In this document: in pieces, positions 6,420 through 47,461 of the stretch
How positions within the stretch are numbered: position 1 is the first letter of the stretch
Layout of the letters: the number at the start of each line of letters is the position of its first letter
NCBI RefSeq assembly: GCF_000024065.1
Contig: NC_013174.1
Coordinates: 248,001-312,000, forward strand
Origin: Jonesia denitrificans DSM 20603
GTDB taxonomy: Bacteria > Actinomycetota > Actinomycetes > Actinomycetales > Cellulomonadaceae
Direction: 5' to 3'
Length of the DNA: 64,000 nucleotides
Translations under genes and position numbers: made by a program
Notes under the pieces: generated by a model
Told to the model about the DNA's origin: nothing
The model's database searches: none
What the model saw: only the letters and a program-made list of their open reading frames with translations

Positions 6420-9400
6420 TTACCGCGGGGGCGGAGCGGCTGCCGTGATCGCCTTAAGGACACGCTTCTCCGAGACAGTCCGTGCCGTGCCCAACTGCTG
6501 GGCATACATGGACACCCGCAACTCCTCAATCATCCAGCGCACATCCGCTAACTGCTCGGACACCCCGTGAGGGGAGGCGGACGCAGACGCGACAGCCGCA
6601 TCGTACATCCGGGTGACCTCCGCCAACCGCCAACTCACTTCCTGGTCGCGGTGCACAGAATCCACCGCCTTATCAAGGCGGTGAATCTGCGCTCGCACGT
6701 ATCGCACCAGGTGACGAACATGATCCGGGGGTGTGCGGGAAATGAAACCAGGGTAAATCAGAGCGTCCCGGATCGCACGAATGTCGTTGAGGGTCGCCAG
6801 GAGAGCCAACGACGTGTGCTGCTTAATCGCCGCATCCAAGTCCTTGACAGCGGTCAGAGCAGCAGCAACATCCCCAGCTATCCGGTACGTCTCATCCTCA
6901 ATACGCGCCCGCACCTGGACCACCCGCTCCCGGTACGTGTCCACATCACGAATGGTGCCAGCGTCAGGGAGCAACGAACGGATCGCGGCACGTTGCAGGT
7001 CAGTGATCAGCGCATCGGTTGTCGGGTAAGGACTCGTCGACATGACCAACGCTTGGCGCGGTGACCAGCGGGTACTGATCCGGCTCGTACTGAGAGCAGT
7101 CGCAGCGACCACAAGCTCCACCACAGCCTGCCCGTGAATGGTGGCCTGTTGAGCGTCATGGGCAAGCACATCCAACCGAACCCCATCAGGGTGGACCGCG
7201 AGCGCGGGATACCCGCGCACAGCGAATCCGCCGGGCCCGGTGCCGTCGAGGATAAGGGGGATGGTGGGGTAGGCGGTGGGCCAGTCGGTGACGATGTCGG
7301 AGCTGTCGGCAAGGGCCGGTGCGGGTGGTGGTGTGCTTGTCGATGCGTGGTGTTGTGCGCGAACAGGTGTGCGTGGGGTGGTGGTTGAGCCGGTCGGGAC
7401 TGGGGTGGGTGTGGCGGCGGCGCGGGCTTCGGCGAGGGCGGCGCTGACGGCGGTGTGCACAGCGGAGGCGACTGCTTCTTGCGCGTGGGAAGACAGTGTG
7501 CGTTGGAGGTGTTCCAGGCTGGGGGATTGGTCGAGTACTTCAGTGACTGTGCGACGCCCCCGGTTGACGGTGTGTTCCACGGAGAACATGATGCGCACGT
7601 GTGGGGGGAGGGTGTGCGGGGTGTAGGCGTCAGCGGGGATATCCACGGATCGTAGTGCGTAGGCCGCTTGGGTGAACTCGGCGTGGAATTGTGGGGCGTG
7701 GTTGCCGCCGCGGACAAGGTCAGCCCAGGATGGGTGGCGTTCGGTGAGCCAGGTGGCGATGGCTCGGGCAGTGTCGGGGGCGGGGACGAGTTGCCGTCGC
7801 CACGTTTTGGGTAGTGATTTGATGGTGGCGATGCACAGTTCGGTGAGGAGCCCGGGGACGAGCCAGTCGAATCCGCCGGCTTCTACCCGGTTGAGTACTT
7901 CAATCGGGATGTGAACGGTTAACCCGTCGGTGCTGTGGCCTGGGGTGTAGGAGTAGGTGATGGGGAATGTGAGGTCACCTTGTGGCCAGGAGGTGGGGTA
8001 GAGGGCGTCGACTTGTTCGTCATCGACTGCGGGGAGGAGGTCGTCGCGGTGGAGGTCTAACAGTGTGGGTTCTGTTTTTCGGGTGTCTTTCCACCAGCGG
8101 TCAAAGTGGGCGGCGGATACGACAGAGTCGGGGAGGCGGGCATCGTAAAACTCGTAGAGAACTGTGTCGTCAACCTCTAGTTGGGTGGCGCGGGTTCGGG
8201 CATAGAACTCTTCGACCTCTGCGATGACAGCTTTGTTGTGCCGCCAGAATGCGTGGTGGGTGGTCCATTGGCCGTCAACGAGTGCGTGGCGGATGAACAT
8301 GTCCCGTGCGGCGTCGCGGTCAACGTGGGAGTAGAGGATTGGCCGTTCGGTGACGATGGGAACCCCGTACAGCATGACCTTTTCTCGGACCATGGCTGCG
8401 CCTCGTTTGGTGGACCACGCTGGGTCTGAATACGTGCGTTTCACGATGCCTTGGGCGAGTTCTTCGGCCCATTCCGGTTCGATGGCCGCGACGTCGCGAG
8501 CCCACAGCCGGGACGTTTCCACTAATTGCGCAGCCATCACCCAGGTAGGGGGTTTGCGGGACAGTGAGGAACCAGGGAATATGGCGAATTTTGTGCCGCG
8601 TGAACCCAGATACTCGTTGCGAGCCATGCGTGCCGCCCGGCGGTCTTGGGCTGCGTCTTTGCCTTTGCGGGTCGCTGAAACGTCTGTGCTTTCCTGCATC
8701 CCAATCTGGGAGAGTAGCCCAGCTAAAATGGATCGGTGGATCGCTTCCCCGTCCCACACAAACCGGGTGTCCACTGATGTGTCTTCACTGGTGGTTAGTG
8801 CATCACCGACGGGTTGTGCGGACCGGTGTGTGACGGTGATCCCCAAGGGCCGGGCCATGTCCCGCAACTGGGAGACCACATCCTGCCATTCTCGGATGCG
8901 GAGAAAGTTCAGGTACTCGCGCCGACACATGCGGCGGAACGCCGAGGACGATAACGCTTTTTGTTGGGAGCGCACGTACTCCCACATGTTGAGGTAGGTG
9001 AGGAAATCAGAGCGCCCTTCCACAAAACGACGGTGACACGTATCGGCTTCGTCGCGCACCTCAGCGGGGCGTTCACGTGGGTCTTGAATGGACAGCGCTG
9101 CCGCAATAATGAGCACCTCACCGGCAACGCCACGGCGATTCGCTTCCACGATCATGCGTGCCAGGCGGGGGTCAATGGGGAGCGCCGCAAGTTGTCGGCC
9201 CACCGGGGTTAATGTTGTTCCCCGCTTCCCCGACGATAACGCTGACAGTTCCTGAAGCAACGCCACCCCATCACGCACTGCTTTGGTGTCTGGGGGGTCA
9301 ACAAACGGGAAGGAAGCAATGTCATCCGGTGTGCGCACCACCCCTACGGACACCATGTGCAAAATGACTGACGCCAACGATGTGCGCAAAATTTCGGGTT

Positions 9401-40541: not shown

Positions 40542-41573
40542 TCACCAGCGCGGCTCGAGAACGAGTTTGCCGAACACGTCACCACCAAGAAGCTGCTCGT
40601 GTGCACGGGCAGCTTCTTGCATGTCCCAGACCTCATGGACCACAGGGCGGATGCGCCCGGCTGCCAGCAGTGGCAGGAGGTCTGTTGTGACTCCCTTGAC
40701 GATGCGCGCCCGTTCTTCTCGCGGGCGTGACCGTAGGGTAGTTCCGTGAATACTGGCTCGCTTTGCCAGGAGCGGGCCAAGAGGAAGGGTCCCGGTTGCT
40801 CCTTTTTGCATCCCGATGACGATGAGCCGACCGCCTGTTGCCAGGCTGTGAACATTGGCACCAAGTAACGATGCACCAGTGACGTCGAGGATGATGTCGC
40901 AGCCACGCTGGTTGGTTGCTTGGGCAACGAGCGTGGGCAGCGCATCGGCAAACGTGGATTTCCCGTGCGCGTCCACGTGTTCGCCATACGCCCAGGCCGT
41001 GTGTGCCCCAAGATCCGTGCACCGCGCGGCACGCTCCGGCGTGCGCGCGGTGGTGAGGACGGTGGCTCCTAACGCTGAGGTGATCTGAAGGGCGAGTGAG
41101 CCCACTCCACCGGAGCCACCATGGATCAAGACGGTCTCACCAGACGTGAAGTGCGCCACATCAAAGAGGTTGGACCAGATGGTGCAGGCGGCTTCCACAA
41201 ATGCCGCGGCATCGACCATGCTGATGTTTTCCGGGATGACCATGACGGAAGCCGCATCCGCTACCACAAACTCCCCGTATCCGCCTGCGGTCACAAGAGC
41301 CATGACGCGGTCGCCTTGTCGGATATGTCTGACATGAGAACCGCACTCGCGGACAACTCCTGCCACCTCCAAGCCAGGAATATCGGAACTTCCCGCAGGT
41401 GGGGCGTAGTGCCCATGTGTTTGGAGAATATCCGCCCGGTTGACGCCCGCCGCAGCGACCTCAATGAGAACTTCACCCGCTCCAGGAATGGGATTAGTGA
41501 CCATACAGGGTTGAAGCAATGGCCCTGCGGGTGAAAGTATCTGAAAGGAGTTCGGAGCCCGAAGCGCATGCAT
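40542..41573 (-). CDS. NAD(P)H:quinone oxidoreductase, zinc-independent MDR family
   Basis: This 343-residue cytosolic medium-chain oxidoreductase of the PIG3/quinone oxidoreductase group has GVNRADILQTHGHY (about residue 48), the cofactor loop HGGSGGVGSLALQI (about 156) and no catalytic zinc Cys or His ligands. It would reduce quinones or enoyl-type acceptors with NADPH. The start ATG 41573 gives MHALRAPNSFQIL; earlier in-frame codons run through the intergenic region. Its upstream region carries the palindrome GGCAACGTTGCC, whose AACGTT centre resembles the site before the AglE-like gene. Confidence 0.9.
   Translation of the reverse strand: MHALRAPNSFQILSPAGPLLQPCMVTNPIPGAGEVLIEVAAAGVNRADILQTHGHYAPPAGSSDIPGLEVAGVVRECGSHVRHIRQGDRVMALVTAGGYGEFVVADAASVMVIPENISMVDAAAFVEAACTIWSNLFDVAHFTSGETVLIHGGSGGVGSLALQITSALGATVLTTARTPERAARCTDLGAHTAWAYGEHVDAHGKSTFADALPTLVAQATNQRGCDIILDVTGASLLGANVHSLATGGRLIVIGMQKGATGTLPLGPLLAKRASIHGTTLRSRPREERARIVKGVTTDLLPLLAAGRIRPVVHEVWDMQEAARAHEQLLGGDVFGKLVLEPRW
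40589..40616 (+). terminator. Possible terminator of the AglEFG operon, inside the convergent gene end
   Basis: Left arm 40589-40601 and right arm 40604-40616 can form a 13-bp stem with one G-T wobble and a minimal loop, 57 bp after the AglG-like stop. It lies within the 3' end of the minus-strand oxidoreductase, which weakens the call. Confidence 0.35.
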
Positions 41574-41590
41574 ACCTCGAACAATACCGA

Positions 41591-41602
41591 GGCAACGTTG
41601 CC
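41591..41602. promoter_or_regulatory. Perfect AACGTT-centred palindrome upstream of the quinone oxidoreductase
   Basis: GGCAACGTTGCC is a perfect 12-bp palindrome 18 bp upstream of the minus-strand oxidoreductase start, in the divergent region shared with the conservon. It matches the LacI-type operator layout and shares CAACGTT with 36850-36863. Confidence 0.35.
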
Positions 41603-41743
41603 CCTGTGGGTGAAAAAAACATAGTCTTAGGCGTTGAACTCTATTGGACCCGCTCAAGGGCCGGCATCTACCTGCCGATGACCCGGTAGCGGAAAGCACG
41701 CGGACTCGCCGTGATGCAGACAAGAATGTGGGAGGGATCAGGG

Positions 41744-44700
41744 ATGCTCAAGCGCTTAAACGTGCAGAATAAGATCCTTGCGACCCTGGCTGTTCCGATC
41801 CTCGTGATTCTCGTTGCGGCAACGGTCTTTGCTGGACAGTCAATTTCTGCGTGGCGTGAAGCCCAGCAGACGAAGAACGTTGTGGACCTGGTTGATTCTG
41901 GGCAAACGTTCATCGAGATCATCCAGAACGAACGGTATTGGGCAATTGAGTATCGTCGAGGGGCAGCAGGTGCGGGCGAAGAATGGCAGAAGGCTATTGC
42001 CTTGCGTAATCAAGCGCTTGACGAAGTAGGGTCGGCACTTCGCGACATTGATACGTCACGGATGTCCCCTGAAGTTCAGCGTGCCATTGACCTCGCGCTG
42101 AAAAATACGCGTGCCTTCCTCGAGGCGGCTGAAGGCCAAGCATCACGTGGTGCGGCAACCACTCAAGTGGTGTCGAAGGCGTACACCGACGCGATCGACA
42201 ACATTTTGCGCGTGGCCTCCCAGCTAGGAAACACGGTCGGTGACCGGCGTGTTGGTAACGCAGCGCTTGCTTACGTGACCACAACGAACTACCTCGACGA
42301 CACGATCTCTGAAATCCCGCTGATTTCTGAAGCACTCACCGTGTCGCGCAGCAACGACGGTGTGAACCGTGTGTACCGAGAACTCGCCACCACAGTGCGG
42401 TTGACCAACGCAAGCCGTGACGACACCCGAAACACGTTGAACCGACTCGTTGGTGTCGACTTCCCCAGCTTGAAGATCGCATCCGCTCAATACACCGCGA
42501 TCCGCCAGTATTTGGCCAACGGGAACATCGGCGCGATTTCTGGTCCACTCGCGGAACAATGGGGCGAACTTGCCCAGGTTGAGGTCGAAGCAGTTGACCC
42601 CATCGTGAAAGCGATGATGGCCGAGATGAAAGACGCTGCAAACGACCAGCTCAACGCGGCGCGAACCAACTCCATCCTGACAATCATTGCCGTGCTGGTC
42701 GTCTTCGCCGCCTCACTGGCCATCGCGTACGTCACCTCTCGATCCATCACCCGACCGCTGCGTCGACTCACCGAGTCCGCAGAGCGAGTGAAGGAAGAAC
42801 TGCCACGCCTGGTAGAACAGGTGGCGATCCCTGGTCAAGGACCAGACCTCGACCTCGAAGAGATCGACATTGACTCTCGAGACGAAGTGGGACAGCTCGC
42901 CGCAGCGTTCAACTCTGTGAACCACACCACCGTAGAAGTTGCCCGTGAACAGGCAGCGCTTCGTGGCTCCATCGCGGAAATGTTCGTCAACGTGGCCCGT
43001 CGTGACCACGTCCTCCTCAACCGTCAGCTTGGGTTCCTTGACGAACTCGAACGCGCGGAAGAAGACCCGAACATCCTTGCAAACCTCTTTAGGCTCGACC
43101 ACCTTGCAACACGTATGCGTCGTAACTCCGAGTCACTCCTGGTGCTCGCTGGTATCGACTCTGGTCGTCGAGTGCGCCAACCCATGCCGATGTCGGACGT
43201 GGTCCGTACCGCGTCATCTGAGATTGAGCTGTATGACCGGATCCAACTGAACCTGCAATCCGACCCGGCCATGCTCGGTCACAATGCGCTGAACGCCGCG
43301 CACCTCATTGCAGAACTCTTGGAAAACGCAACAAACTTCTCCGAACCAAACACACCTGTTGAGGTGACCACGGATGCGGGACGAAACTTCGTCACCGTCA
43401 CCATCCGTGACTACGGTTTGGGCATGTCTGATGACGACATCGCTGAAGCGAACCGTAAAGTCGCGTCACGGTCAGCAACTGACGTGATCGGTGTGCAGCG
43501 TGTGGGTCTGTTCGTGGTTGGTCGTCTCGCAGACCGTCTCGGTGTGCACGTGGCGTTTGCCCGCCCCAATGATGGCTCCACCGGAACCGTGGCCACACTG
43601 TCCTTCCCCTGGAACCTCTTTACTGATGCTGCCTACCAGGACTACCAAGGCCGTGCACCACAAGCAGGTAGCCAAACCTACCAGCAGCCTCAAGCACCTC
43701 AACCATCAAGCCAGTTCGCGCAACCACAACAACCTGCGCAACAGGCCAATCAGTTCGGTCAGCCGCAACAGCCGCAGCAACAGCAACCCCAACCGCAGCA
43801 ACCCATTCAGCAGCCCGCTGGCTACCCGGTGGAAGAGCCACCGGTTGTATCCGAAGTGGACCTGAATGCGTTAACTGATGGTCAAACAAACACCGGTATG
43901 CCACGTCGGCGGGTGTCCAACGCACCCACCGGACAAAACCAGGCGTTTGCGCCGCAGCAAGACTTCTCCGGTGCGCCACTTGGTGGAGGACGCCCTGCGG
44001 CGCCAGCACCGCAAGCACCAGCCCAGCAGGCGCCAGCACAAGGCCTACCAAGCCGTGGGGGCGCACAGCAACAATTCGCGCCACAGCAGTCGGCCGCTAG
44101 CGCTCTGCCATCACGGGGCGGCAACGGCAACCAAGGTGTGGGGCTCTCCCCAGACTTTGGTGATGACTCACCTGAGATTGTGTTGCCACCACTGGCAACC
44201 CCGACACGGACAGTCAGCTTTGATGATGACTCCGCGCCGTGGCAGCCAGAAGTCATCCAAGAAGCTCGCCCACTGGTGACCCGCCGTCCAGCGGTGAAAG
44301 AACACGTGGAAGAGACGCCGCTTGGTCCTGACGCCTCGTTGGCGGCGCAACCAGAACGCCGTTCTGCGATGTTCTCGAACTTCCGCTCCTTCTCAGCACC
44401 ACAAGAAGGTACAGAAGCCCAAGCGCCATCAGCTGGCTCGCCATTTGCTCAGCCTGCAGACGACGATGACTCAACGCAGGTCATTGACCGTGTGGCTGAC
44501 TCGCCGCGTGCTGAAGAAGTCGCTGAACCGTGGCGGGGTCAGCAGGACACTGTGACTCATTCTGATCACGGTCAGCATGGTGCATCCGATGCGCCGCAGT
44601 CCCGAGCTGATCTGGCGAAGTTCGCCCACCTGCCTACCCGCGCATCACGTGCCCGGGCCCAGTCAGACACGGCCCATCCCGCACCTCAAGCTGCAAGCCA

Positions 44701-45952
44701 CTCCGTCGCAGCTGATGCGGCACTGCCTCAAGAACCACGCGGATACCAACCCAACCCGGACATGGTGATCCCAGGGCTTGTTGATGAAGCACGCGACCCA
44801 GGTCACCAGGGTGGGTTCCCGCAGCAGACACCAGCTCAGTACTACCGGTCCGCCGCGAGCGCTTTCAGCGCGCAAAGTGCACACGAAGCGCACGAACCTG
44901 AGGAGGACCGCAGCTATGGGATGCCGCTTCCTCCGCAGCGTCCAGAGTCAGTGTACGAAGCGACTCAAGGACCTGTTGACGAGCAGCACAACTACGGTCA
45001 ACCAGCATCAGCACCTTCCTGGCAAAACAACGCAGCCCAGGAACAACCGATGCGACCACAGTTCGCCCCGATCTTTGGTGACGGTGCCAGCGAACCAGCA
45101 GCACCAGCAGCTCCCAACTTCGCTGACGTCGTGTCTGACCTGCCACAGGAAGACACCAAATCAAAGAAGAACGGCCTACGTGGCTGGTTGCGTAAAGGAA
45201 AGTCAACAGACACCTCCGCGCATGAAACAGTTGCTGAGCCCACGGCACCTCAGGGCTCGTACGGGCAACCACAGTTTGGACAGTTCAGTGGTGGCCAACA
45301 GTTCCAACCAGCTCAGTCCCAAGGTCAACAGCCTTTCCGCCAACCCACTGCGCCATCAGCAGCTGAACCTTATGTGCCTCAGGTACCACAACGGGTGTCA
45401 AGCTATGGTGCAGGGTCGGCGTCTCACGCCGCCTCAGCCCCATACGCTGCCTCGGCCCCTGCCGCCCCAGCTGCATACAGCGGCGGCACCTCACAGTCGT
45501 GGGAACCCACGTATGCTCCTTCCGCTCAGGAACCAGCAGTACGAGAGTTTCCGCAAGGTGGATCAGGTGTCACCCAGTGGCAACCACCCACCGACCTGAC
45601 CGTTGACGTCAACTCAGCTTTTGCGTTGAAGTCAACAATCCAGGAGCAGGCACTTGCTGAACTCAGCCAGCTGTCCGCGTACCGCCCAAGCGAGGTTGAC
45701 ACCAACGCTGCCGGGTCACTGACCCGCCGTGTTCGGAGCACAGCCGCGCCTCAGGCACTCACTGATGACCCGACCACGCAGAAGATCAGTCGCGACGCGG
45801 CCGAACTTCGGGCACGCCTCTCCGCGTTCCAATCTGCAACCAGCAGAGGACGCCGAGATGGTGCATCTGAGGGTCCACCTCAGAATGAGCACGGGAATGA
45901 CCGAAATGGCCAGTCGCAACTACGTGTGCCAGACTCTGCCACTCGATACTGA
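41744..45952 (+). CDS. Conservon sensor histidine kinase-like protein (CvnA type) with very long low-complexity tail
   Basis: This 1402-residue membrane sensor has a first transmembrane helix at about 12-32, an extracytoplasmic helical sensor of about 275 residues (nitrate/nitrite-sensor type), a second helix at about 309-330 and a HAMP linker. A DHp-like helix follows (ARRDHVLLNRQL, then RLDHLATRMRRNSESLLVL) and an ATPase domain with N-box ELLENATNFSE (about 524) and DYGLGMSDDD (about 556). From about residue 632 to 1280 the chain is Gln/Pro/Ala-rich and probably disordered. The last 110 residues look conserved (LTVDVNSAFALKSTIQEQALAELSQL). GGAGGG at 41731-41736 sets the start. It heads the four-gene conservon; no response regulator is nearby. 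Confidence 0.92.
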   Translation: MLKRLNVQNKILATLAVPILVILVAATVFAGQSISAWREAQQTKNVVDLVDSGQTFIEIIQNERYWAIEYRRGAAGAGEEWQKAIALRNQALDEVGSALRDIDTSRMSPEVQRAIDLALKNTRAFLEAAEGQASRGAATTQVVSKAYTDAIDNILRVASQLGNTVGDRRVGNAALAYVTTTNYLDDTISEIPLISEALTVSRSNDGVNRVYRELATTVRLTNASRDDTRNTLNRLVGVDFPSLKIASAQYTAIRQYLANGNIGAISGPLAEQWGELAQVEVEAVDPIVKAMMAEMKDAANDQLNAARTNSILTIIAVLVVFAASLAIAYVTSRSITRPLRRLTESAERVKEELPRLVEQVAIPGQGPDLDLEEIDIDSRDEVGQLAAAFNSVNHTTVEVAREQAALRGSIAEMFVNVARRDHVLLNRQLGFLDELERAEEDPNILANLFRLDHLATRMRRNSESLLVLAGIDSGRRVRQPMPMSDVVRTASSEIELYDRIQLNLQSDPAMLGHNALNAAHLIAELLENATNFSEPNTPVEVTTDAGRNFVTVTIRDYGLGMSDDDIAEANRKVASRSATDVIGVQRVGLFVVGRLADRLGVHVAFARPNDGSTGTVATLSFPWNLFTDAAYQDYQGRAPQAGSQTYQQPQAPQPSSQFAQPQQPAQQANQFGQPQQPQQQQPQPQQPIQQPAGYPVEEPPVVSEVDLNALTDGQTNTGMPRRRVSNAPTGQNQAFAPQQDFSGAPLGGGRPAAPAPQAPAQQAPAQGLPSRGGAQQQFAPQQSAASALPSRGGNGNQGVGLSPDFGDDSPEIVLPPLATPTRTVSFDDDSAPWQPEVIQEARPLVTRRPAVKEHVEETPLGPDASLAAQPERRSAMFSNFRSFSAPQEGTEAQAPSAGSPFAQPADDDDSTQVIDRVADSPRAEEVAEPWRGQQDTVTHSDHGQHGASDAPQSRADLAKFAHLPTRASRARAQSDTAHPAPQAASHSVAADAALPQEPRGYQPNPDMVIPGLVDEARDPGHQGGFPQQTPAQYYRSAASAFSAQSAHEAHEPEEDRSYGMPLPPQRPESVYEATQGPVDEQHNYGQPASAPSWQNNAAQEQPMRPQFAPIFGDGASEPAAPAAPNFADVVSDLPQEDTKSKKNGLRGWLRKGKSTDTSAHETVAEPTAPQGSYGQPQFGQFSGGQQFQPAQSQGQQPFRQPTAPSAAEPYVPQVPQRVSSYGAGSASHAASAPYAASAPAAPAAYSGGTSQSWEPTYAPSAQEPAVREFPQGGSGVTQWQPPTDLTVDVNSAFALKSTIQEQALAELSQLSAYRPSEVDTNAAGSLTRRVRSTAAPQALTDDPTTQKISRDAAELRARLSAFQSATSRGRRDGASEGPPQNEHGNDRNGQSQLRVPDSATRY

Positions 45953-45992: not shown

Positions 45993-46442
45993 ATGAGCAC
46001 GCTCAGCACCGAGGCAACGAACTTCGGTTGGTTGCTGGACAACTTTGTGCGGACAGTTCCGGCCACACGCCACACCCTTGTGGTCTCGGCTGACGGCCTG
46101 TTAATGGCGATGTCCGATAACCTCGACCGGACCAGCGGTGACCAGCTCGCCGCAATCGTGTCCGGCATGTCAAGCCTCACCCGTGGGGCCTCACGCCAAC
46201 TCAACGGTGGGGCGGTTCGCCAGGCCATCGTGGAAATGGACAATGGCTTCCTCTTCTTGATGAACGTCTCGAACGGATCAGTTCTTGCCGTCGTCGCTGA
46301 TTCCTCATGCGACGTTGGTCTGATCGGATATGAGATGGCTATGCTCGTATCACGAACTGAAGCAACTCTCACACCACAACTGATCTCAGAGATGCGCGGC
46401 TCGCTGCCGGTAGACGGAGCTACACGCGCGCAAATGGGATAG
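45993..46442 (+). CDS. Roadblock/LC7 domain protein (CvnB type)
   Basis: This 149-residue small cytosolic protein of the Roadblock/LC7 family is a regulatory partner of bacterial Ras-like GTPases. Characteristic parts are NFGWLLDNFVRTVPATRHTL at the N-terminus and VVSADGLLMAMSDNLDR, then QLAAIVSGMSSLTRGA. It follows the sensor kinase by 40 bp with AAGGAG upstream and precedes a DUF742 gene, the canonical conservon order. It probably senses or transmits the state of the kinase to the GTPase (established model for conservons, role inferred here). Confidence 0.93.
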   Translation: MSTLSTEATNFGWLLDNFVRTVPATRHTLVVSADGLLMAMSDNLDRTSGDQLAAIVSGMSSLTRGASRQLNGGAVRQAIVEMDNGFLFLMNVSNGSVLAVVADSSCDVGLIGYEMAMLVSRTEATLTPQLISEMRGSLPVDGATRAQMG

Positions 46443-46455
46443 ATCAAGGATAGTC

Positions 46456-46863
46456 ATGACTCGTCATTCGCTGAGATTGCCCGATGACGGCAATCACTAC
46501 GAGGCTGCGACGGTGCGGCCTTACGCGGTTACCGGCGGGCGTGTACGATCAGCTACGTCCAACCTGCCGCTAGAGACCTTAATTGAGGTCACTCCAGGCG
46601 CCGTAGACTCGAGCGGACTCACCCCCGAAAAACGCGCGATCTTGGACCATGCGGCACGGAACTACGTGTCGATCGCTGAGGTGTCTGCACTTTTGCGGAT
46701 GCCACTCGGAGTGGTCCGAATCCTTATCTCAGACCTGGCGGACGAAGGATATTTGAAGATCCACACGTCGACGCCTGTTAACGTTCATACTGGTCACGGT
46801 CAGAACCCGGCCATGTCCTTGAGTGTGTTGGAGAGTGTTCTCAATGGTATATCAGCCCTCTGA
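46456..46863 (+). CDS. DUF742 family protein (CvnC type)
   Basis: This 135-residue cytosolic protein shows the DUF742 pattern: an N-terminal VRPYAVTGGRVRS, then ETLIEVTPGA, LTPEKRAILDHAARNYVSIAEVSALLRMPLGVVRILISDLADEGYL. The last piece reads as a winged helix, cut here for length as SIAEVSALLRMPLGVVRIL and SDLADEGYL. It may bind DNA or a protein partner. It sits 13 bp after the Roadblock gene and overlaps the GTPase gene by 20 bp, so all three are co-translated. Confidence 0.93.
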   Translation: MTRHSLRLPDDGNHYEAATVRPYAVTGGRVRSATSNLPLETLIEVTPGAVDSSGLTPEKRAILDHAARNYVSIAEVSALLRMPLGVVRILISDLADEGYLKIHTSTPVNVHTGHGQNPAMSLSVLESVLNGISAL

Positions 46864-47461
46864 GACGACAGTGGGGCAGGACACGGCGAAAGCCACGACC
46901 GCCCCAACCGTCGTCAAGATTGTCGTGGCGGGTGGGTTCGCTGTCGGTAAGACAACATTTATCGGATCAATCTCAGACATCGAACCGCTCAACACTGAAG
47001 CGGCGATGACCGAGCACTCCGTGGGTGTTGACGATGCCGGTGGCGTCACCGACCGCAAAACCACAACAACCGTCGCAATGGACTTCGGTCGTATCGAACT
47101 ACCAGGGTCCTTGTGGCTCTACCTGTTCGGTACCCCAGGACAGGACCGCTTCCTCTTCATGTGGGACGACCTGGTTCGCGGTGCTATTGGTGCCGTCGTT
47201 CTGGTGGACACGGAACGTCTTGAGCAGTGCTTCCCCGCGATCGACTACTTCGAGTCACGAGGTGTCCCGTTCGTTGTGGGGATCAACTGCTTTGACGGTG
47301 TAGCCAAGCACCGCATCGAAGATGTGCGTGAAGCACTTCAGGTGCCCGCTCACGTCCCCATGCTGTACACGGACGCGCGTTCCCGTGCAGCAACCAAGCA
47401 AACGCTCATCCAACTCGTCCAGCACGCCATGGAACGGCTCCAGGCAGCAGCTCGAGGCTGA
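46844..47461 (+). CDS. Ras-like GTP/ATP-binding protein (CvnD type)
   Basis: This 205-residue cytosolic small GTPase-like protein closes the conservon. Walker A is GGFAVGKTT (residues 30-38). The switch-II region FGTPGQDRFLFMW (about 103-115) replaces the usual DxxG with a bulky FGTPGQ, as in other CvnD proteins. A guanine-specificity NKxD motif is replaced by NCFD (VGINCFDG), so nucleotide preference is uncertain. ATG 46844 with GGAGAG upstream is the best start. In Streptomyces such GTPases cycle with their Roadblock partner and report the sensor state to unknown targets. Confidence 0.93.
   Translation: MVYQPSETTVGQDTAKATTAPTVVKIVVAGGFAVGKTTFIGSISDIEPLNTEAAMTEHSVGVDDAGGVTDRKTTTTVAMDFGRIELPGSLWLYLFGTPGQDRFLFMWDDLVRGAIGAVVLVDTERLEQCFPAIDYFESRGVPFVVGINCFDGVAKHRIEDVREALQVPAHVPMLYTDARSRAATKQTLIQLVQHAMERLQAAARG

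Follow-up and report, generated by a model that had tools for sequence, protein, structure and literature searches.

A conserved two-part motif at the C-terminal tip of the conservon kinase CvnA of Jonesia denitrificans, a plausible docking module

We analysed a 64,000-nucleotide stretch of the Jonesia denitrificans DSM 20603 genome (NC_013174.1, positions 248,001-312,000; "the window", to whose positions the coordinates below refer unless a locus is named), and in particular the long C-terminal tail of CvnA, the sensor kinase of a conservon. The gene cvnA is part of a four-gene conservon in a genome of 2.75 Mb. The protein has the histidine-kinase-like ATPase domain of conservon kinases (PF02518, residues 518-622), and genes for a Roadblock/LC7 protein, a DUF742 protein and a GTPase-like P-loop protein lie downstream on the same strand (45993-47461), the arrangement of a conservon operon.

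41744..45952, + strand: cvnA, conservon sensor kinase, 1402 amino acids (open reading frame and translation; HAMP and HATPase_c domains; no other strong CvnA in the genome)
42734..42916, + strand: HAMP domain, residues 331-391 (Pfam PF00672, E 5.8e-10)
43295..43609, + strand: HATPase_c domain, residues 518-622 (Pfam PF02518, E 4.3e-10)
43628..45949, + strand: CvnA tail, residues 629-1402, 774 residues (composition and conservation profile; no Pfam family above cut-off)
45993..46442, + strand: cvnB, Roadblock/LC7 protein (Pfam PF03259, E 8.7e-22)
46456..46863, + strand: cvnC, DUF742 protein (Pfam PF05331, E 5.9e-26)
46823..47461, + strand: cvnD, small GTPase (best match Pfam PF03029, E 2.4e-28; weaker GTPase families also match)

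The open reading frame of cvnA spans 41711-45952. A minus-strand frame (40542-41723), by eye quinone-oxidoreductase-like, overlaps the GTG-start version of cvnA at 41711-41723 and does not reach the ATG at 41744, which we therefore favour as the likely start. Hydrophobic stretches were read by eye from the translation near residues 10-30 and 307-328, and no NIT domain was found in the protein by Pfam at E <= 0.1. The second-best CvnA match in the genome reached only E 3.6e-4, and the nearest named relative in our scan was Jonesia quinghaiensis, with a core identity of 77%. Autophosphorylation or ATPase activity is reported for CvnA8 and CvnA9 in the available parts of two papers (PMC13343842, PMC8510531). 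The Jonesia kinase is an ordinary member of this known system; the new part is the element at the tip of its tail.

Residues 629 to about 1275 of the tail (about 647 residues) are rich in Gln, Pro, Ala, Ser and Gly. The composition is uneven: these five residues make up as much as 0.80-0.88 of a 40-residue segment in the poorest stretches, and many segments are ordinary. The last 110-130 residues of the protein are of another kind. To measure conservation, we aligned 79 full-length CvnA proteins of near relatives, having dropped three that look frameshifted (L141, L122 and L160), contig-cut sequences and identical copies. Mean column information was 3.09 bits in the kinase, 0.81 bits in residues 641-1280, 1.97 bits in residues 1281-1375 and 2.7-3.1 bits around residues 1346-1370, which match the kinase in conservation. 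Five conserved islands were found in the tail besides the tip, and the tip is the strongest of them all.

43829..43915, + strand: island 1, residues 696-724 (VDLNALTDGQ...GMPRRRVS; 15-column means up to 2.8 bits)
44144..44293, + strand: island 2, residues 801-850 (EIVLPPL...APWQP...RPLVTRRPA; 15-column means mostly 1.0-1.65 bits)
44339..44398, + strand: island 3, residues 866-885 (ERRSAMFSNFRSF; up to 2.4 bits)
45089..45199, + strand: island 4, residues 1116-1152 (FADVVSDLP...GLRGWLRKGK, with a basic end; up to 2.3 bits)
45569..45703, + strand: island 5, residues 1276-1320 (LTVDVNSAFALKSTIQEQALAELSQLSAYRP; conserved at the level of the order only)
45710..45745, + strand: motif A, a basic GLPRR-type peptide, residues 1323-1334, Jonesia form AGSLTRRVRSTA
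45779..45856, + strand: motif B, the terminal helix, residues 1346-1371 (QKISRDAAELRARLSAFQSATSRGRR; alignments, motif finding and substitution rates; helix predicted in the homologue L186)

An earlier note on this DNA, made from its letters alone, had described a very long low-complexity tail behind the kinase and a final part of 110 residues that looked conserved. The observation is confirmed, but the low-complexity stretch holds four more conserved islands. As to its end, about residues 1276-1372 are conserved, but the last 30 residues are not. In the 79-protein alignment R1350, R1356 and R1370 are identical in 100% of the sequences, and L1359, F1362, Q1363, R1368 and G1369 in 93-98%. Between the Jonesia genome of the window (G000) and that of J. 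quinghaiensis, the ratio of non-synonymous to synonymous substitution rates (dN/dS) stood at 0.02 across residues 1344-1372 and at 0.05 across the kinase, and the final 30 residues reached 0.59; elsewhere in the tail it was 0.11-0.30 (for example, 0.30 and 0.19 in the linkers 725-800 and 886-1115), apart from three regions saturated at synonymous sites, in which it was undefined. We conclude that the tip module is under strong purifying selection. Searched by themselves, the last 130 residues had a counterpart in 28 of the 39 relative genomes (E <= 0.01), and the kinase half in 31 (E <= 1e-10). A Pfam search of the tip returned no family above cut-off, and no solved structure with the motif was found, the best match being apolipoprotein E at E 0.0041, which we took as chance.

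The four islands inside the low-complexity tail (43829-43915, 44144-44398, 45089-45199) contain RRSAMFSNFRSF among their conserved peptides. The Jonesia tail also has five LPxR-type peptides by pattern, plus the GMPRRR of island 1. Such peptides occur at a mean of 5.0 per tail in the order set of 79 proteins (0.75 in shuffled tails) and 2.1 per tail in a phylum set of 60 (0.35 in shuffled tails). Tails have a median length of 708 residues in the order set (range 407-1243) and of 223 in the phylum set (67-703).

The phylum set was assembled through DUF742, which scored above cut-off in 20 of 149 genomes, at 67 places, so that CvnC is present there by construction. Sixty-five of these loci were fetched (the other two being G000 and G025), and 60 of the 65 had a kinase frame. 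Motifs were then sought without a seed in the last 170 residues, with the 33 proteins of three large genomes set against the 27 others. Training on the 33 gave GLPRRVprAnL, which scored above the 99% shuffle level in 20 of the 27 held-out proteins (0.3 expected). Training on the 27 at width 20 gave dPeaVR..LSshq.GvRrGR, with 24 of 33 held-out proteins above the same level (0.3 expected); at width 12 merely 8 of 33 were recovered. Hand-written bipartite patterns, since superseded by the unseeded search, had matched 32 of the 60 proteins (0.0003 in shuffled tails). A third phylum-wide element upstream of motif A was sought in the same way and rejected, as its motifs did not transfer to held-out proteins (1 of 24 and 2 of 33); island 5 is therefore counted as an order-level feature only.

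Matrices built from the whole set found motif A in 56 of 59 distinct complete CvnA proteins, motif B in 51, both in 49 and at least one in 58, although these position-specific scoring matrices (PSSMs) were trained on the same proteins and at least one of the 49 pairs (L224) is false, its motif B match lying outside the tip. Motif A lies upstream of motif B in 48 of the 49, mostly 24-43 positions away. The module consists of a basic GLPRR-type peptide, 10-30 variable residues and a helix of the form R-x-P-E-x-V-R-x-x-L-S-x-F-Q-x-G-x-x-R-G-R, followed by a median of 24-27 residues to the C-terminus. In the order-level set, motif B scores in 84 of 90 proteins; the phylum form of motif A does so in no more than 34 of 90, since LTRR and LARR variants take its place in the order. 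The six motif B misses are three frameshifted or cut sequences (L141, L122, L160) and three distant paralogues (L096, L097, L098). In four cvnA frames (L122, L141, L160 and L238), the tail or the kinase part appears to be frameshifted or cut.

For an out-of-sample test, we used a profile from a 30-row alignment (A3) that includes no member of the family of the window protein. The profile matched the Jonesia tip at E 8e-7 (45719-45853). Over 23 genomes it gave 39 matches at E <= 1e-4, all of them to CvnA (a script confirmed 36, and the remaining three, in G000, G001 and G025, fall at sites already known to encode CvnA); in six conservon-less genomes of the order it found nothing better than E 0.027. 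Across the class, 149 of 296 genomes had a match at E <= 1e-5. The Jonesia tip is one end of a two-part motif found throughout Actinomycetota, and in the genomes searched the module is confined to CvnA. The earlier note had staked its idea on the conservation of the terminal segment in other CvnA proteins; conservation proved to be phylum-wide, and stronger than proposed.

The gene neighbourhood was one way to ask what the tip might bind. Among 78 loci found through the motif and having at least 1.4 kb downstream, cvnB, cvnC and cvnD follow cvnA in 69, cvnB and cvnC in five, cvnC alone in two, cvnB alone in one and none of the three in one; that is, cvnB lies just downstream in 75 and cvnC in 76. 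At L348, a motif-bearing CvnA tail is followed by cvnB only. We also noted mini-conservons in which cvnA is directly followed by cvnC, and in which neither a Roadblock nor a GTPase gene was detected in the vicinity (L215:2501-5134, L224:869-3370, L225:2501-5311, L217:2498-5320, L218:3684-6836 and L233:6083-8959, as well as the motif-first loci L332 and L338). The seven such units in the phylum set were expected to point to the partner, but they disagree. Both motifs are kept at L217, L218 and the second unit of L233; at L215, L224 and L225, inspection by eye shows no motif B; and the seventh, L238, has a frameshift. The PSSMs had scored L224 for both motifs and L225 for motif B, but the printed tails show no motif B, and these scores were read as matches outside the tip and left uncounted. 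Since the A-C-only units are mixed, and cvnB is found nearly as often as cvnC, adjacency does not name the partner.

The earlier note had proposed that the end of the tail docks the Roadblock or GTPase partner encoded next door, and had suggested complex prediction as a check. AlphaFold2 was run on the homologue L186 rather than on the Jonesia tip, with tail, CvnB and CvnC in one frame, and was judged on the predicted local distance difference test (pLDDT). In the tail alone, a helix was predicted at 51-71 with a pLDDT of 85-86, the rest being low. The helix was likewise predicted in the joint chain, with no gain in confidence over the tail-alone control; the joint chain was accordingly rejected as evidence of docking, and the equal values suggest that the helix stands by itself. 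In this homologue the predicted layout is that of a tail such as the one of RomR of Myxococcus xanthus, with a disordered linker leading to an autonomous helix at the C-terminus. When the joint model was compared with known structures, the Roadblock domain alone was recovered (3kye, Z 20.6, root-mean-square deviation 1.4, 119 aligned), a comparison that does not probe the tip.

Docking of the tip to the Roadblock or GTPase partner remains plausible. In the form that we prefer, and to which we give about an even chance of being right, CvnA would act as a flexible tether anchored in the membrane, with the soluble CvnB/CvnC(/CvnD) module held at its tip, much as MglC is held by the RomR helix. 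The N-terminal half of the kinase would fix the long disordered tail to the membrane, and the tip would be a two-part docking module composed of the basic GLPRR/LTRR-type peptide, a short variable linker and the autonomous helix (RDxxxLRxRLSxFQxxTxRGR). The tip would bind at least one soluble product of its own operon, most likely CvnB (Roadblock) and/or CvnC (DUF742), and the GTPase switch CvnD might thereby be worked on at the membrane beside the kinase. Reach, and extra weak contacts, could come from the length of the tail together with its recurring LPxR-type peptides. In favour of this reading are the conservation of the module from genus to phylum, its place close to the C-terminus, its confinement to CvnA, the presence of cvnB and cvnC behind nearly all motif-first cvnA genes and the precedent of RomR. 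Interactions of CvnA9, CvnB9, CvnC9 and CvnD9 are reported from a two-hybrid assay in the part of that study available (PMC8510531).

Several observations weigh against tip docking. The full motif is kept where neither cvnB nor cvnD was found nearby (L217, L218, the second unit of L233, L332 and L338), and therefore adjacent CvnB or CvnD is not required; at L336, a motif-bearing CvnA has no cvnB, cvnC or cvnD detected downstream. In the joint L186 chain, the tip helix has a pLDDT of 83, as against 85-86 without CvnB and CvnC, and motif A remains below 50. The helix is not significantly amphipathic, its hydrophobic moments being ordinary relative to shuffles. Covariation, measured as mutual information over 196 paired operons (effective number 63), ranks CvnB above CvnC above CvnD, but weakly (bootstrap 32, 8 and 0 of 40) and with low z-scores, and the CvnB-CvnD control, a pair expected to bind, did no better. 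Finally, according to the available part of PMC13343842, a stable CvnA8-CvnF8 complex was obtained with residues 81-505, so that any part of CvnA8 beyond residue 505 would not be needed to bind this accessory protein.

A narrower form of the docking reading, in which the tip docks CvnC and CvnB is joined solely via CvnC, seems to us unlikely. CvnC is the sole partner found in the A-C-only loci with a full motif (L217, L218, L233, L332, L338), and mfpC (cvnC) and a longer C-terminal region are both reported as particular to Actinobacteria in the excerpt available (PMC13015309). However, the phylum loci were found through DUF742, the motif-first locus L348 has cvnB without cvnC, and covariation with CvnC is not stronger than with CvnB.

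We rate about as low the possibility that the tip binds a target outside the conservon, such as membrane lipid, nucleic acid or a polar or cell-wall scaffold, and so localises the kinase rather than recruiting CvnB-D. Both halves of the motif are arginine-rich, and the motif persists at L336 and in A-C-only loci. Motifs for generic binding of lipid or nucleic acid tend to recur among proteins, however, whereas no other protein in the 23 genomes has the motif at E <= 1e-4, and the helix signature, with its near-invariant R, L, R, F, Q, G and R, is more specific than charge requires. Least probable is intramolecular control, in which the basic motif and helix would bind the ATPase or dimerisation domain of their own kinase and keep it inactive, or be what that kinase phosphorylates, as long as no signal or partner has released them: confinement to CvnA, retention where cvnB and cvnD are missing and a cvnA fragment (rarA) reported as a constitutively active sensor (PMC8510531; the available passage does not state which end was lost) would suit it, but the disordered spacer between kinase and motif is of very variable length and more than such a peptide needs, and L215, L224 and L225 lack motif B with an intact kinase frame.

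Returning to docking at CvnB/CvnC, we also entertain, tentatively and with more doubt than belief, that the bipartite tip supplies the coupling step so far missing from conservon signalling. In this view the kinase would act on the Roadblock/DUF742/GTPase switch by way of an actinobacterial adaptor peptide, which keeps CvnB/CvnC at the membrane and, once the kinase is active, lets them go or changes their position. The main output would then be something other than phosphoryl transfer to a response regulator; the phosphorylation target of CvnA is stated as unknown in the portion available of a 2026 mBio paper (PMC13343842). Whatever its partner, a short element present by at least one half in most CvnA proteins examined (58 of 59), and in CvnA only over 23 genomes, provides a testable peptide of about 50 residues and an annotation marker for conservon kinases.

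RomR is a useful comparison. According to the available text (PMC12719032), it too combines a folded signalling domain, a long disordered region and a C-terminal helix within a Ras-like GTPase/Roadblock system, and the helix binds the roadblock protein MglC with a KD of 2.6 nM. RomR is a response regulator, whereas CvnA is a membrane kinase, and the part of its description available mentions no basic GLPRR-type peptide ahead of the helix; the likeness is one of working principle only.

The closer relative is mycobacterial MfpE, like CvnA a histidine-kinase-like protein encoded ahead of LC7, DUF742 and GTPase genes. At L207, a gene for an MfpA-like pentapeptide protein (7418-7972 of that locus; NCBIfam MfpA model, E 1.2e-102, 341 bits against a cut-off of 360) directly follows cvnD, for which reason we regard L207 as an mfp-type conservon; L210 has a similar MfpA-like reading frame by eye. 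The CvnA (MfpE) tails of both carry the tip, as GLPVRKPGARLVPG/GLPVRDPGARLVPG at L207 and, by eye, as RDPEAVRASFSSHFGGVRTGR/RDPDAVRSSFSSHFGGVRAAR at L210. Our literature search found no description of the tip in open-licence papers (the first conservon papers, published in subscription journals, lay outside its scope), and the bipartite tip appears undescribed in the literature searched. In the excerpts available, a 2026 preprint finds "no notable sequence conservation" in the longer actinobacterial MfpE C-terminal region (PMC13015309), and the mBio paper describes the terminal regions as unstructured (PMC13343842). The conservation of the tip corrects this impression: the Jonesia tail, though longer than is typical of CvnA across the phylum, ends like the others in a conserved two-part motif.

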